From: Victivallales bacterium
Lineage (GTDB): Bacteria > Verrucomicrobiota > Lentisphaeria > Victivallales > Victivallaceae
Direction: 5' to 3'
DNA: 52,946 nucleotides
Assembly: GCA_031261965.1 (NCBI GenBank)
Contig: JAISIP010000115.1
Span: 1 to 52,946 of the forward strand
The position numbers were made by a program, and so were the translations under genes. Shown in pieces: positions 6,399-46,814 of the stretch (position 1 is its first letter; each line of letters opens with the position of its first letter). The notes under the pieces are model-generated. The model did no database searches. It had not been told where the DNA came from and saw nothing but the letters and a program-made list of their open reading frames with translations.

Positions 6399-6564
6399 GG
6401 CTACCTCTAAAAACTGGAAATTTGGCTAAAAATTGCAGCTCACCATTGTATGCTCGGTCTTGCTCATGGCTGGTTAACTCTATGTTAGCCAGCTACTTGC
6501 AAGACCGCACCTCCAATTTGTGAATCTACTAATTTTCAGCTCAACCCAGTTTTTAGAGATACCC
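6399..6564 (-). mobile_element. Full-length MITE-like element (166 bp), copy A
   Basis: Flanked by a 4-bp direct repeat TTTA (6395-6398 and 6565-6568). The ends are GGCTACCTCTAAAAACTGG and the complement of GGGTATCTCTAAAAACTGG. Read on the minus strand it aligns along its whole length with the element at 40131-40297, including an internal hairpin around CTGGCTAACATAG/GTTAACCAG and a CGGTCTTGC...GCAAGACCG pair. A short direct duplication of its right end (TAGAGATACCCTT) follows at about 6569-6581. No coding capacity; presumably mobilised in trans. Confidence 0.8.
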
Positions 6565-8656: not shown

Positions 8657-10182
8657 TATTTCGATTCCTGGTTTTTCTGATACGGACGATAAAGGTAAAC
8701 CACGTCGCCTTCGGAAATCCCGCTTGTGATCTGGACGAAATTATCGTTCGACTCACCGATGGTCACATCCTCTTCTTCCGGTCCGGTTAAGCCGTTGCGA
8801 TAGACGAAGAATCGGTCGTTGTCCTCAAAAACCGCTTCAACCGGGACGAATAAAGTCTTGGGAATCGTCTTGGTCACAATGTGAATTTGTACACTCATGC
8901 CGTTCACCATTTGAGGTGATTGGTGGTCGAATTTGATTTTCGATTTGTAGATTTTCGGCGACGACGAGTCCCAGTTTACCAAATTTACCGGCAATGTGTC
9001 GATATGTGAAATTTCCCCGCCGAACTTCACGCCCGGCAAAGAATCCGGAGAAATTACCGCCCGGTCGCCGATCTTGATTTTTGAGCGATATTGCTCGGGC
9101 AAATCAAAATCGACCACGAGATTGGACATTTCCGGGATCGTGACCAACACTTGTCCCTTGTTGATTTCAATACCCGGTTTGATGTCCAAATTGCCCCAGC
9201 GGCGATCGGGGTCGCCGTAAATTACCACTCCGTCAACCGGGGCACGCAATTCCATCATTTCCATATAGCTTTTGTAGCGGTTGAGCTGGTCGTCGGTGCG
9301 TTTGATTCGGCGGCGATAGTTCTCAATGGATTTGTCGGCTTGTACGATCTTCGATTCCGTGGAGATTTTCACCCGGCGCAAATTCAACTTCGCCTGCTCG
9401 TAAGCGTTAAAAAGACGGGTAAGTTTGCTCGGATTGTCGTAACGGCGAAACACCCGCAAATCGTCTTCGGCGGAATCCAGAGAGTTCTCTTTTTCATCGA
9501 TTTTGGTTTGAGCCTCTTTGAGCAGCTGGCGCTTCTTGTCCTCGGCGTTTTCGCCCTCATTGACGGTGACTTCGCTGTCGCGTGTCGTGGCGTAACTCTT
9601 TACCGCCGTCGCCAGTGCCGACTCGGCGTTGGTGATCGACAAATCCAGCGAATCGCGTTTGCTGGAGCGTTCAAAGCGGCGATATTTACGCATGGCATCA
9701 TCGGTTTGAAGCAAATTCTCTTCGGCTGCCTGTAAATCCGCGGCATTGGTGCTGATCTGAATTTTTTTCGATTCTACCGCCAAATCGAGTTCTTTTTTCA
9801 GGTTATCCAGCTCGATTTCGAGGTTTTCGATTTGCTCTTTTAGCTCGTCGGTTTCAAAACTTGCCAAGAGGTCGCCGGCTTTGACTTTGCCGTTTTCATC
9901 GATGACCCAAAGCAATTTGGTGCGATAATTGGCTTGCAGCGAGAGCTTGTGTTTATGGCTGGCGTTTACATAACCGCCTAATTGCAGACCGATGACCAAG
10001 TCGTCGCGGACAACTTTGTAGGTGCGATCTTTGTCCATGGCGTCTTTTGTCTGTTTCTCCTCAAGGCTTTGCTGTTTTGCCAGTCGCCGCGGTTTGATTA
10101 CTCCAAACCAGACCCCGGCGACGATTCCGCCGATCACGGGAAGCATGATCAGCCAAGTAAGTTTTTTTCGGCTGAGTTTCAT
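8656..10182 (-). CDS. MacA/HlyD-type periplasmic adaptor protein
   Basis: 508 aa. One N-terminal membrane anchor (LTWLIMLPVIGGIVAGVWFG, about residues 9-28), a lipoyl half-motif (VIGLQLGGYVNASHKHKLSL), a long alpha-helical hairpin region (about 110-310, rich in Lys/Glu/Asp), the second lipoyl half (MELRAPVDGVVIYGD) and a C-terminal beta-barrel/membrane-proximal domain. The helical hairpin is longer than in E. coli MacA (371 aa), which fits a pump reaching a different outer-membrane partner. It lies three bases after the secretin gene and overlaps the ATPase start, so it is the physical link between pump and outer-membrane channel. Confidence 0.85.
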   Translation of the reverse strand: MKLSRKKLTWLIMLPVIGGIVAGVWFGVIKPRRLAKQQSLEEKQTKDAMDKDRTYKVVRDDLVIGLQLGGYVNASHKHKLSLQANYRTKLLWVIDENGKVKAGDLLASFETDELKEQIENLEIELDNLKKELDLAVESKKIQISTNAADLQAAEENLLQTDDAMRKYRRFERSSKRDSLDLSITNAESALATAVKSYATTRDSEVTVNEGENAEDKKRQLLKEAQTKIDEKENSLDSAEDDLRVFRRYDNPSKLTRLFNAYEQAKLNLRRVKISTESKIVQADKSIENYRRRIKRTDDQLNRYKSYMEMMELRAPVDGVVIYGDPDRRWGNLDIKPGIEINKGQVLVTIPEMSNLVVDFDLPEQYRSKIKIGDRAVISPDSLPGVKFGGEISHIDTLPVNLVNWDSSSPKIYKSKIKFDHQSPQMVNGMSVQIHIVTKTIPKTLFVPVEAVFEDNDRFFVYRNGLTGPEEEDVTIGESNDNFVQITSGISEGDVVYLYRPYQKNQESK

Positions 10183-44000: not shown

Positions 44001-44243
44001 GACACATTCGCTCACTCGGTTCATGAAGTCCGCGCCGAGATATTCGGTCGCCAAACCGGTGCGGGAGTGCATGTGAAAGCCGCCCATGCCCATTTCTTTA
44101 AAAATATAAATCTGTTTTTTGAGTTCTTCCGCCTCAAGTTTACAGTTCCACGCCCAAAACGGAGTGTCGCGATAAAGTGCTTTTGGCGATGCGAAAAGTT
44201 GATCGAAGTTCTCATTGCGATCTTTTGCGTACAAGTTTTCCAT
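41094..44243 (-). CDS. GH106-like glycoside hydrolase (alpha-L-rhamnosidase type)
   Basis: 1049 aa with no signal peptide. N-terminal barrel blocks: TPFWAWNCKLEAEELKKQI, MGMGGFHMHSRTGLATEYLG, LYDEDRWPSGAAGG, and IPSIFTDEPQFTRKQS, with further blocks FSGHMMEERSLE and DWDWDFKGHKGHGDW. This order matches the large GH106-like hydrolases that are expanded in Lentisphaerota. A later part (about 470-600) has glutamine-amidotransferase-like folds, and the C-terminus has beta-sandwich domains (about 790-1000). The substrate is probably rhamnose-containing glycan, but subfamily assignment is uncertain. No transporter or regulator is adjacent. A GG...GGAA run shortly before the ATG is the only ribosome-site candidate. 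Confidence 0.7.
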   Translation of the reverse strand: MENLYAKDRNENFDQLFASPKALYRDTPFWAWNCKLEAEELKKQIYIFKEMGMGGFHMHSRTGLATEYLGADFMNRVSECVENAKKLDMLAYLYDEDRWPSGAAGGSVTRNPKFRARYLLFTPNRRTQKIDANNDNSGRFLAAYSVKLDPAGALERYRLIGEDDSPDADAEKFYAYLMVANPESWFNNQTYVDTLNPAAIQKFIDLTYEAYFRKFGKEFGHTIPSIFTDEPQFTRKQSLTFATEKCDARFPFTDDLPESYRTAYNCDLFATFPEVIWELPDGKFSLARYRYHDHVSERFTVAFADKIGEWCEKHNIVFSGHMMEERSLESQTAALGEAMRSYRSFQLPGIDMLCDSFEYVTAKQAQSASHQYGRGGVLSELDGVTDWDWDFKGHKGHGDWQAALGVTVRVPHLAWVSMAGEAKRDYPASINYQSAWYKKYSIIAEHFARVNTAMTRGKARVRVGVIHPIESFWLVFGPQDMTADRRNFLTETFEALIEWLLHGLVDFDLIAESLLPELSPVQSEKSFKVGEMAYDVVIVPPSITLRGTTLERLESFRQAGGRVIFTGDVPVCCDAVESDRVKKLAAQSEQITFNRNSVLHAIEKLRDVAVVKQDGYPLSNLLYQMREDKDARYLFIANTERIGRANPVMIKVRGLWQVIYLDTANGKQTPVLGRHENNWTIFEFPMYPHGSLLVKLLPSTQCQGSMIGVPLLNDKDIETATMLHLSGVIPISLDEPNVLLLDRPQWRLSGDGEWQKAEEILRLDNLCRASLGLPRRSGGIVQPYVHGKSTKVLGTLELLYTIETQIDVESPQFALEEPENAEIYLDGVRVPFNDNGYWVDRSLRTTPLPRLSVGQHELLVRIAYTESCNVERCFILGDFGVELLGDSARIIEPVRKLVWGDVTRQGLPFYGGNITYHCSFTQNEEQELLLRIPSRISGVEPGLCNTETAKEVPLCGYRGVLLDATLDGKEAGDLPFAPYQCELGKVAKGEHKLDLTLYGSRMNCHGAVHLAFRCHWAGPVAWRSNGDMFSYEYQLQPFGITHAPRLLKK

Positions 44244-44370
44244 TTCCGATACCTATTTTTAGGTGATTATCGAGTGATAAACATAGAATACCCGTTTTAT
44301 TGCGAAATTTCCATCACAATTCAATCAAAAAACCGCACAAAACAATCAAACCAACAAAGCTGAGTTTTCT

Positions 44371-44454
44371 AAAATCTTGGAAATCGTGTTATATTGTACT
44401 GTAAAAATCTTGGAAATCGTGAATATTGTCTATTTGAAAATCTTGGAAATCGTG
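44371..44454 (+). repeat. Three 18-bp direct repeats at 33-bp intervals (iterons)
   Basis: AAAATCTTGGAAATCGTG occurs perfectly at 44371-44388, 44404-44421 and 44437-44454. Starts are 33 bp apart, close to three helical turns, so bound proteins would lie on one face of the DNA. The last copy ends 19 bp before the ATPase ATG at 44474 and likely overlaps its promoter or leader. Confidence 0.9.
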
Positions 44455-44473
44455 TTTTTATTGGGAGAAGATC

Positions 44474-45826
44474 ATGAAGCGAAAAATCTATAACCAATTG
44501 CTTGACTGGAAAAGCAACGATGCTAATCGAACCGCATTGCTTATCGATGGGGCAAGGCGAATCGGTAAAAGTTATATTGTCAATGAATTCGCCAAAAAGG
44601 AGTACAAATCCCATATTTTGATCGATTTCAATCGGGTTTCTGCGGATATAAAAGACCTTTTTGAACGTCATCTAATGGATTTAGACACCTTCTTTTCTTA
44701 CCTTTCGGCATTCTTTAATGTGCAACTATATCCTCATGAGTCCTTAATTGTGTTTGATGAAGTACAGCTTTTCCCAAAAGCGAGAGCGGCTCTCAAATAT
44801 CTGATTGCAGATGGACGCTTTCACTTTATTGAGACTGGTTCGCTTATGTCGATCAACGCCAATACCAGCGAAATAGTTATTCCGTCGGAAGAGCGGCATA
44901 TAAAGATGTATCCATTTGATTTTGAGGAGTTTTTGTGGGCGATCGGCAATGAAACGCTTATGCCGGTTATTCGCGAAAATTTTAGCGCAATGCGTCCCAT
45001 GGGACAAATGTTGCATCGTAAAGCTATGGATTTCTTTCGCCAATATCTGATTATAGGTGGAATGCCTCAAGCACTTCAGGAATATGTCAATAGTCGAGAT
45101 TTTGAAAGAGTCGATGCGATAAAGCGTGACATTCTCACCTTATATCGGGCGGATATTGTAAAACATGCCAAAGGGTATGCGCGAAAAGTCGAAGCGATTT
45201 TTGATGAAATCCCGGCACAGTTGCAAAAGCATGAAAAGCGATTTAATTTGGCATCGCTGTCAAAAAATGCCCGCTTACGCGACTATGAGGATTCATTGTT
45301 TTGGCTGTCCGATGCCATGATTGTGAATATTTGTTGGAATTCATGCGCACCATCCATTGGGCTAAAGCAAAATATGGATAAAAGTACACTGAAATGCTAT
45401 ATGGCTGATACCGGGCTTTTGATCAGTCATACCTTTGACGAAAAAGGCATTGCAAACGAAGAGATTTATCGCAAATTACTTTCCGGCACGCTGGAATTCA
45501 ATGAAGGAATGATTATAGAGAACGTTGTTGCGCAAATGCTAAGTGCCGTCGGACATAAATTGTATTTTTACTCTAATTCAGGAAAAGACAACAACGCAGA
45601 GCGTATGGAGATAGATTTTTTAATTTCCAAAGCCAATATAACCAATCGTCATAATATTTCCCCCATAGAGGTAAAATCAGGTAAGAACTACACTTTTACC
45701 TCGCTTAAGAAATTTAGAAATAAGTTCCCGGCGCAGTTACACCAGCCATATCTTATCCACGCTCAAGATGTTATGCAAAAAGAGGGTTTTGCATGTATCC
45801 CGCTGTATATGACTCCTCTGCTGTAA
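44474..45826 (+). CDS. AAA_14/DUF4143 ATPase
   Basis: 450 aa. Walker A LLIDGARRIGKS, Walker B LIVFDEVQLFPKA, sensor motif FIETGSLMS; then a helical middle region and the DUF4143 C-terminal part with IEVKSGKNYTF and FYSNSGKDNNAERMEIDFLI (nuclease-like PD-(D/E)XK-type residues). GGGAGAAG lies upstream of the ATG. Such proteins are common in anaerobes of the gut; function is unproven, and a role in DNA handling or plasmid-like regulation has been supposed. The three iterons upstream suggest specific DNA binding. Its stop is near a MITE insertion. Confidence 0.88.
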   Translation: MKRKIYNQLLDWKSNDANRTALLIDGARRIGKSYIVNEFAKKEYKSHILIDFNRVSADIKDLFERHLMDLDTFFSYLSAFFNVQLYPHESLIVFDEVQLFPKARAALKYLIADGRFHFIETGSLMSINANTSEIVIPSEERHIKMYPFDFEEFLWAIGNETLMPVIRENFSAMRPMGQMLHRKAMDFFRQYLIIGGMPQALQEYVNSRDFERVDAIKRDILTLYRADIVKHAKGYARKVEAIFDEIPAQLQKHEKRFNLASLSKNARLRDYEDSLFWLSDAMIVNICWNSCAPSIGLKQNMDKSTLKCYMADTGLLISHTFDEKGIANEEIYRKLLSGTLEFNEGMIIENVVAQMLSAVGHKLYFYSNSGKDNNAERMEIDFLISKANITNRHNISPIEVKSGKNYTFTSLKKFRNKFPAQLHQPYLIHAQDVMQKEGFACIPLYMTPLL

Positions 45827-45832
45827 CCTAAT

Positions 45833-45915
45833 GGGTATCTCTAAAAACTCACCTTGAGTTACAAAATTGCCAGATTCGCAATTTTTAGCCAAGTTTCCTG
45901 TTCTTGGGGATACCC
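45833..45915. mobile_element. Medium MITE copy (83 bp) between convergent genes
   Basis: Starts GGGTATCTCTAAAAACTC and ends GGGGATACCC; flanked by TAAT on both sides (45829-45832 and 45916-45919). Its left and right halves match the two ends of copy B (40131-40297) joined without the middle, so it is an internally deleted derivative. The right TAAT and the last C of the element form the stop of the mutarotase gene. Confidence 0.85.
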
Positions 45916-46814
45916 TAATTCTTTACGCTGATTTTTTGGCTCAAGACATGTGTCTTGCCGGGAGGAATAACGCGGCGATCTTTAAAGGCGTTGGCAGCTT
46001 CAATGCAGACCATGGTATGAAATTCATCATCGTCCAAATATGGCATGGCATGGGCTTTGGCGATCCACGGATTCCAGACCACGGTCGAAGCACTGCCGGA
46101 TTTTTCCACCAAAATTGTCCGCTCAAACCCGGGGTCGTAAATCTCAATTGCCCCGGTGGTGTCAAAGTAGACTCGATCCACCTCGCGATTGATGATTATA
46201 TCGCCGTTTTGCACGCGATCGAACTTTTCCAAGCCAACGATGTACTCATTGTACATGGCTTGGTCAAGCCCTTTTATCGCGATTTTTTCCACCGCTTTGA
46301 CGTTAAAGTAGGGATGGAGCGCGTCGGTGATAACTTGTTCAGCAGGTGAACAATTCTTCATCGACAGCGTCATAAGCAAGCTTTTACCGATCACAAACTC
46401 CATGCGCAATTCAAACGGGAAAGCCACCGGCATGGCAGTGACATCTTCGGGGTGCAGCTCAAATGCAATTCGCGTGGCGTTGCTCTCGGAAGCGACTTCC
46501 GCAACTTGCCAATCCGAAAGTCGGGCAAAACCGTGCTTGGGTAACGCCGGGTCGGATGCCGAACCAAAATACGGCCAGCAAATCGGAACGCCGCCGGAGA
46601 TCGCTTTATTAGGCTCAAACACACTCCGTTTACTCATCCAAATCACCGGGAGTTCGCCGTTCGGAACAAACTTCATTAAGTGTGCGCCATGTAGACAAAT
46701 CTCCGCTTCCGCCTCGCTGTTTTTGATTTCCGCAGTGATAAAACCGCCCGAAATCAACTTAAAATTGATTGATTCGGAACCGAATTTCTTTTGTAACTCG
46801 TTGATATTACTCAT
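45915..46814 (-). CDS. D-hexose-6-phosphate mutarotase (YeaD-type aldose epimerase)
   Basis: 299 aa from ATG 46814, which has AAAGGAAAATATC upstream; a start at 46835 would be within the preceding gene. Galactose-mutarotase-like beta-sandwich: EICLHGAHLMKFVP, GGVPICWPYFG (Cys/Trp-Pro block), LPKHGFARLSDWQV with the catalytic His, TDALHPYFNV, VVWNPWIAKAHAM. YeaD-type enzymes interconvert alpha/beta glucose-6-phosphate or related sugars. The start overlaps the stop of the preceding unknown gene by eight bases. Confidence 0.88.
   Translation of the reverse strand: MSNINELQKKFGSESINFKLISGGFITAEIKNSEAEAEICLHGAHLMKFVPNGELPVIWMSKRSVFEPNKAISGGVPICWPYFGSASDPALPKHGFARLSDWQVAEVASESNATRIAFELHPEDVTAMPVAFPFELRMEFVIGKSLLMTLSMKNCSPAEQVITDALHPYFNVKAVEKIAIKGLDQAMYNEYIVGLEKFDRVQNGDIIINREVDRVYFDTTGAIEIYDPGFERTILVEKSGSASTVVWNPWIAKAHAMPYLDDDEFHTMVCIEAANAFKDRRVIPPGKTHVLSQKISVKN

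Follow-up and report, generated by a model that had tools for sequence, protein, structure and literature searches.

The iteron systems of plasmid initiators, which are autoregulated, provide the background against which the repeat arrays in front of DUF4143 genes can be compared. They have in common with the locus described here short asymmetric direct repeats, near-helical spacing and an adjacent AAA+/winged-helix gene; they differ in that several genes of our type occur per assembly, that the encoded protein has a PD-(D/E)XK-like domain and that any origin at our locus would be hypothetical. A second comparison is with the archaeal AAA+/STAND ATPases PABY2304 (2qen) and SSO1545 (2fna), whose AAA+/winged-helix fold is like that predicted for residues 1-321 of the ATPase studied here; the identity is only 16-18%, however, and the match ends before the C-terminal nuclease-like part. 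The third is PADLOC PDC-S01, a single-gene phage defence candidate whose profile and domain make-up our protein shares. PDC-S01 has been described as an ATPase fused to PD-(D/E)XK, widespread and horizontally moved, with ∼39,000 genes; it was ranked fourth in frequency among prokaryotic defences, validation being pending for most such candidates (PMC12988326); in a rumen genome set it was the most frequent individual locus (PMC13356809). The sections of these two papers available to us give no mechanism for PDC-S01, and those of PMC12988326 do not mention an upstream array. No upstream repeats appear in the titles and abstract openings of papers on DUF4143, PF13635/PF13173, COG1373 and PDC-S01; preprints and most subscription papers lay outside this survey, and a description elsewhere is possible.

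The window analysed here is the whole 52,946-nt stretch of contig JAISIP010000115.1 from a Victivallales bacterium. A first-pass annotation had placed three 18-bp iterons with a 33-bp period in front of an ATPase gene, 19 bp before its start codon, and the coordinates proved exact when re-read. Iteron 1 (AAAATCTTGGAAATCGTG) lies at 44371..44388 on the plus strand, followed on the same strand by two identical copies, iteron 2 at 44404..44421 and iteron 3 at 44437..44454; the spacing is exactly 33 and 33 bp, and 19 bp separate the last copy from the ATG at 44474. When up to 3 mismatches were allowed, one further and weaker match to AAAATCTTGGAAATCGTG was detected in the window, at 8852 with 3 mismatches (chance expectation 0.17; four matches were reached in 0 of 100 shuffles). 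The 13-base core AATCTTGGAAATC is confined to the three iterons in the 2.38-Mb assembly, and on this ground a genome-wide repeat was rejected. Dinucleotide shuffling of the upstream 350 bp, repeated 300 times, never gave an array score as high as the observed 34. The two 15-bp spacers are identical to each other at only 3 of 15 positions; plain tandem duplication is therefore not the case. CRISPR repeats are ∼23-47 bp long and are separated by unique spacers of similar length. With 18-bp repeats, 15-bp gaps and three copies the window array does not have the make-up of a CRISPR array, and that reading was rejected on the repeat and spacer sizes.

The gene behind the array (44474..45826, plus strand) encodes a 450-aa ATPase that matches AAA_14 (PF13173) and DUF4143 (PF13635), both far over the Pfam cut-offs, and the PDC-S01 models (best E 5.5e-114), and by these three profiles it is a member of the AAA_14-DUF4143/PDC-S01 family. 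Three other representatives also match the PDC-S01 models (E 1.2e-59, 3.2e-94 and 1.4e-164). Profile searches of NCBIfam and PHROGs gave no match for the window protein, and a sequence search of solved structures returned two chance-like matches alone (E 0.47 and 0.54). A structure model built with a 33-sequence alignment reached pLDDT 88.8 and pTM 0.89, compared with pLDDT 51 for a shallow alignment. In our reading of this model, an AAA+ domain would occupy residues ∼1-205, helices and a predicted winged helix ∼206-325 and a PD-(D/E)XK-like domain ∼340-450; strands 284-290 and 301-310, which follow helix 268-280, would fit the winged helix. The predicted fold, winged helix included, has its best structural matches over residues 1-321 in 2qen (Z 16.7) and 2fna (Z 15.3), and then in CED-4, plant NLRs, Avs5 and Orc/Cdc6. 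The PD-(D/E)XK-like residues are intact: E379, D381, E399 and K401 are invariant in 33/33 aligned sequences, the pattern expected of a putative PD-(D/E)XK nuclease-like C-terminus.

Similar iterons were searched upstream of DUF4143 genes elsewhere, a check put forward in the first-pass annotation; with changed letters, they accompany homologues from at least six phyla. Most genomes came from two families, one in Lentisphaerota and one in Clostridia, picked because the matches were there. A scan of genome contigs yielded 10 relatives at 63-74% identity, three titled Lentisphaerae/Lentisphaeria and seven Clostridium/Clostridia, and reading of the DNA found window-like iterons upstream of all 10. 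By the scorer, 8/10 have arrays of 3-6 copies spaced 32-33 bp apart; L014 (33 bp) and L017 (66 bp) have just two copies each. The repeat letters differ across these close loci (TTGGAAATCGTG, TTGAAAACGTG, TTGAATTCGTG, TTGATTTCGTG and TCGCGATTTCGTG) and are nearly constant inside each. The carriers are patchy: a close homologue (E <1e-190) occurs in 6/78 genomes of the window's family, the window's own included, and a homologue (E up to 1e-100) in 20/243 genomes of the Clostridia family, three of which were already known carriers. A distant set comprised 16 loci at 28-62% protein identity, chosen for variety from 72 matching plasmid and phage-bin records (59 plasmid, 13 phage), plus L269. Arrays of 32-34 bp with a score of at least 20 were present in 11 of the 16 (L193-L196, L199, L201 and L204-L208), a 42-bp array in L200 (clade I, the window's own protein clade) and two weak copies each in L198 and L202; none was found upstream in L197 and L203. 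The array-bearing hosts include Segatella, Prevotella, Parabacteroides, Agathobacter, Collinsella, Glaesserella and Criblamydia; Segatella copri DSM 18205 and Collinsella aerofaciens are among the natural carriers. A first viral scan with the window protein as single query found no relatives; IMG/VR loci provided many more arrays at 33-34 bp.

Taking a score of at least 20 as a called array, and DUF4143 genes less than 75% identical as the gene set, we found called arrays upstream of 41/123 genes, the other 82 having none. The alternative raised in the first-pass annotation, that the repeat would occur upstream of unrelated genes only or be conserved beside no homologue, is not borne out: the repeat is conserved beside homologues. 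Called arrays were rare in control regions: 1/75 downstream of DUF4143 genes (in L038, where it belongs to a neighbouring clade-I DUF4143 gene), 1/60 upstream of other genes in the same loci, 0/28 upstream of other ATPase genes (weak ATPase_2 matches) and 0/984 in shuffles. The single hit among the 60 control genes was rejected as a lone DUF4143 array; it is an IS21 end. Neighbouring iterons are 89% identical, a figure inflated by the way the copies are found, versus 40% for the spacers.

The period of the array follows the protein clade. In clade I it is 33 bp in Lentisphaerota, Bacillota, Bacteroidota, Actinomycetota and Pseudomonadota and 32 bp in Chlamydiota, and the called arrays of this clade divide into 27 at 33 bp, three at 32 bp, one at 34 bp and one at 42 bp. 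Clade II, a second protein group with a WCGK motif in Walker A, has a period of 23 bp (five called arrays at 23 and two at 22 bp); one called array at 32 bp belongs to clade III and one at 27 bp to the remaining genes. The combined lag z was 39.6 at 33 for clade I, 23.3 at 23 for clade II and 14.7 at 32 for clade III. Genes of clades I, II and III that lack a called array carry the clade lag weakly as groups (peaks at z 15.1, 15.2 and 12.8, respectively); the controls gave a maximum z of 4.0 for 42 other genes and 3.8 for 47 clade-I downstream regions. The single best lag was 32-34 in 46/61 clade-I rows and 7/9 clade-III rows, and 22-24 in 9/11 clade-II rows; for control genes it was 32-34 in 2/60 and 22-24 in 4/60, and for downstream regions 5/75 and 4/75, respectively. 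Clade labels were set by locus id, which gave 61 rows labelled clade I versus 59 in the tree, the excess arising from L032 and L228 with two genes each; the tree holds 121 of the 123 rows, as equal names were merged, and L020 was omitted from the protein alignments because of a frameshift. Fresh loci were sampled from plasmid records (6 of 103 for clade II, 3 of 49 for clade III). Lag 23 was top in all six clade-II loci (Collinsella, two Bacteroides, Prosthecochloris, Actinomyces and Lentilactobacillus), with an array score of at least 20 in three; 2/3 clade-III loci gave 32 (Treponema) or 33 (Bacteroides finegoldii), and Desulfosarcina gave neither. The canonical DUF4143 group has no common period, and isolated arrays were seen in L088 (27 bp), L089 (21 bp) and L099 (62 bp), the last two of which dropped out at 75% clustering. 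Iteron similarity falls weakly with protein distance (rho -0.22 for the winged helix and -0.21 for the AAA part), and by domain this correlation does not single out the winged helix over the AAA part. We concluded that phased arrays often precede genes of a very common ATPase-nuclease family and that the spacing follows the protein subfamily.

In pairs of genes 84-94% alike from different genomes, the common DNA mostly equals the array plus the ORF, and the flanks are unrelated. Among the 24 distinct pairs with enough flank in the best 80 rows, 13 of which stem from six Clostridia loci, the common DNA begins 79-142 bp upstream of the start codon in 21 and stops within 20 bp of the stop codon in 19, the other five extending more than 20 bp past it. 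Neighbour genes differ between plasmid loci. In the window, the left edge of the cassette is placed at 44354..44370, as DNA common to sister genomes G073 and G074 stops at 44350-44353, 17-20 bp before iteron 1. The right side (45827..45921), which is largely a MITE-like inverted repeat, is absent from the sister genomes; vertical homology resumes at ∼45922, and the sisters carry other genes in between. In the Bacteroidales plasmid locus L198, homology to a relative breaks off 11 bp short of the first (weak) iteron and is regained 5 bp beyond the stop codon; where L198 has the cassette, that relative has a HipA segment. Sequence comparison shows that the array with its clade-tied period is transferred together with the gene, within such cassette edges.

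Two features of these sites are recorded here in their own right. One MITE-like copy, with ends GGGTATCTCTAAAAACT, lies directly 3' of the window ATPase gene at 45833-45915, and others lie at 6548, 23121 and 40131; the assembly of 2.38 Mb has 459 matches to the GGGTATCTCTAAAAACT ends at up to 2 mismatches (229 plus, 230 minus) against 2 for the reversed control, and several pairs ∼150 or ∼65 bp apart are among the matches listed. In the two Bacteroidales plasmids, the DUF4143 cassette (L198 2193-3894) and a HipA_N-HipA segment (L273 2001-3708) stand in the same slot; the HTH gene that precedes this slot is truncated in L198.

The sharp ends of the common DNA, the other DNA carried by sister genomes at the window site and the HipA segment in the relative of L198 would all suit a one-gene mobile element that is moved by the ATPase-nuclease and for which the array serves as an end or an integration site. 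An IS21 end also carries similar phased repeats: on a Segatella copri plasmid (L193 1497-1582) a 23-bp phased set, like the DUF4143 arrays, stands at an IS21 end and adjoins a DUF4143 gene that has a separate 33-bp array. Unlike IS21 ends, the DUF4143 arrays are on one side only, and their neighbours vary by locus. A search of 38 loci found 6 iteron-like copies elsewhere (3.5 expected) and no excess on the 3' side, so two-sided repeat-bearing ends are not what these loci have. Both compared sites, in the window and in L198, are replacements, which may have gone in either direction; there is no clean empty site at either. Furthermore, arrays have anywhere from 3 to 8 copies and lie 3-197 bp from the ATG, and the one in L199 appears to be in inverted orientation compared with the rest. 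We regard a mobile-element end as quite unlikely.

The same inversion counts against repeats that act in RNA as a leader structure or that are neutral tandem duplications, and we concluded that variable copy number, variable distance and the inverted array are easier to reconcile with an operator than with either a transposon end or a leader RNA. The repeats do stand upstream of the start codon, and in L193 a -7-like TATCTTTG was seen by eye before the array, which may thus be transcribed there; in L205 and L207, in contrast, TAnnTTTG, which we take to be a -7-like promoter motif, follows the last iteron (also by eye). An Rfam search gave no match at E<=1, and known RNA families were rejected on this result. 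Neutral tandem duplication was rejected since spacers diverge and iterons do not. An action in RNA or a neutral origin is thus the least probable reading considered here, and highly improbable in our view.

The window array surrounds a candidate promoter. An extended -10-like TATATT lies at 44390..44395 (plus strand, consensus match), and the final letters of iteron 1 form its TG; a consensus scan of 44240-44480 gave no full sigma-70 (-35/-10) promoter. In 24/32 loci the best -10-like site is in or beside the array, compared with 12.5 expected by coverage, which is a generous null because promoters and arrays both lie near the gene. This tendency to overlap promoter-like sites counts against a further possibility, that the iterons serve replication or partition and an initiator-like ATPase acts on its own origin. 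In plasmids, iterons are typically found next to an initiator gene, and an AAA+ domain plus winged helix resembles Orc1/Cdc6 (Z ∼11). Also against it, DUF4143 genes number seven in the window's 2.38-Mb assembly and up to 14 elsewhere, and the nuclease motif is invariant. A replication role is very unlikely on these grounds.

We consider it probable that the ATPase uses its predicted winged helix to bind the array, which would act as a self-operator controlling the ATPase's own promoter. The first-pass annotation had likewise supposed a phased operator bound by a dimeric or oligomeric protein, for which it put forward the ATPase as one candidate, and the comparisons support this guess. Arrays are conserved at homologues, rare in controls, travel with the gene and have a period set by clade, which makes the ATPase the most economical reader; since the protein subfamily sets the spacing and not the letters, the protein is best explained as the array's reader. 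The binding by the ATPase, the repression and a link to defence are what we infer. The array would be an autogenous operator read by the ATPase encoded downstream: several copies would sit side by side on the phased iterons, contacting them via the predicted winged helix, and the inter-subunit distance would set the period at 33, 32 or 23 bp by clade. The array would lie in and around the promoter, where bound ATPase would occlude RNA polymerase; a potentially harmful single-gene defence candidate would be kept low, its level being set by its own concentration and probably modulated by the ATP state. Iterons plus ORF would then form a self-sufficient transferable cassette that requires no host regulator. 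Counting against this reading are the 82 genes with no called array, the six further DUF4143 genes of the window's assembly (clade III or other), which likewise lack one, the isolated arrays of other periods, the result of the scan of 44240-44480 for a full sigma-70 promoter, and the weak fall of iteron similarity with protein distance.

A separate host-encoded regulator could instead bind the array and switch the ATPase gene. Many defence loci have dedicated regulators, and RptR, a repressor, is reportedly the subject of one paper; the ATPase's own binding to the array is, moreover, deduced. Yet the spacing tracks the ATPase clade across phyla, and most pairs have array plus ORF in common and no common neighbours. 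One two-copy form of the motif, TTGNNNNCGTG, has nine matches in 78 genomes, seven beside the gene and two GC-rich and chance-like. A host regulator therefore appears rather unlikely. We also thought of, and hold unlikely, a bolder variant of the self-operator, in which the array is both resting dock and trigger: a STAND-like ATPase-nuclease would be kept stacked in phase along its own promoter until displaced, for example by a phage changing transcription, supercoiling or the nucleotide pool, and displacement would free active nuclease and open the gene in a self-contained sense-and-respond cassette. If true, this would be a protein-plus-array cassette transferable across phyla and among the commonest in prokaryotes. 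A more speculative detail of this variant is that 33-bp and 23-bp steps each leave ∼50-70 degrees of rotation when a turn takes 10.5 bp, near one subunit of a six-fold helical assembly.

In the canonical-clade loci L058, L059, L060, L075, L077, L117 and L071, upstream palindromes of ∼33-39 bp replace the direct repeats. Inverted repeats with a score of at least 12 were found upstream of 8/42 other (non clade I-III) genes versus 0/126 shuffles; the palindromes were found after looking, some of the eight may be unrelated hairpins, and the eight include L010, L038 and L172, which lie outside the canonical clade proper. The same threshold was reached in 6/61 clade-I and 3/9 clade-III genes. The canonical-clade palindromes may represent the same self-operator in dimeric form. 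Palindromic copies ∼32 bp apart, between the direct-repeat and palindrome types, were seen by eye in L202 (Fusobacterium) and L269 (Acinetobacter); for the two copies in L269 the scorer chose another pair.

The clade-matched cis-element supplies each PDC-S01 subfamily with a defined putative DNA ligand whose spacing is known, and the spacing of the array allows subfamilies to be told apart by DNA alone. The array also bears on how a self-contained nuclease gene crosses phyla without harm to its new host.
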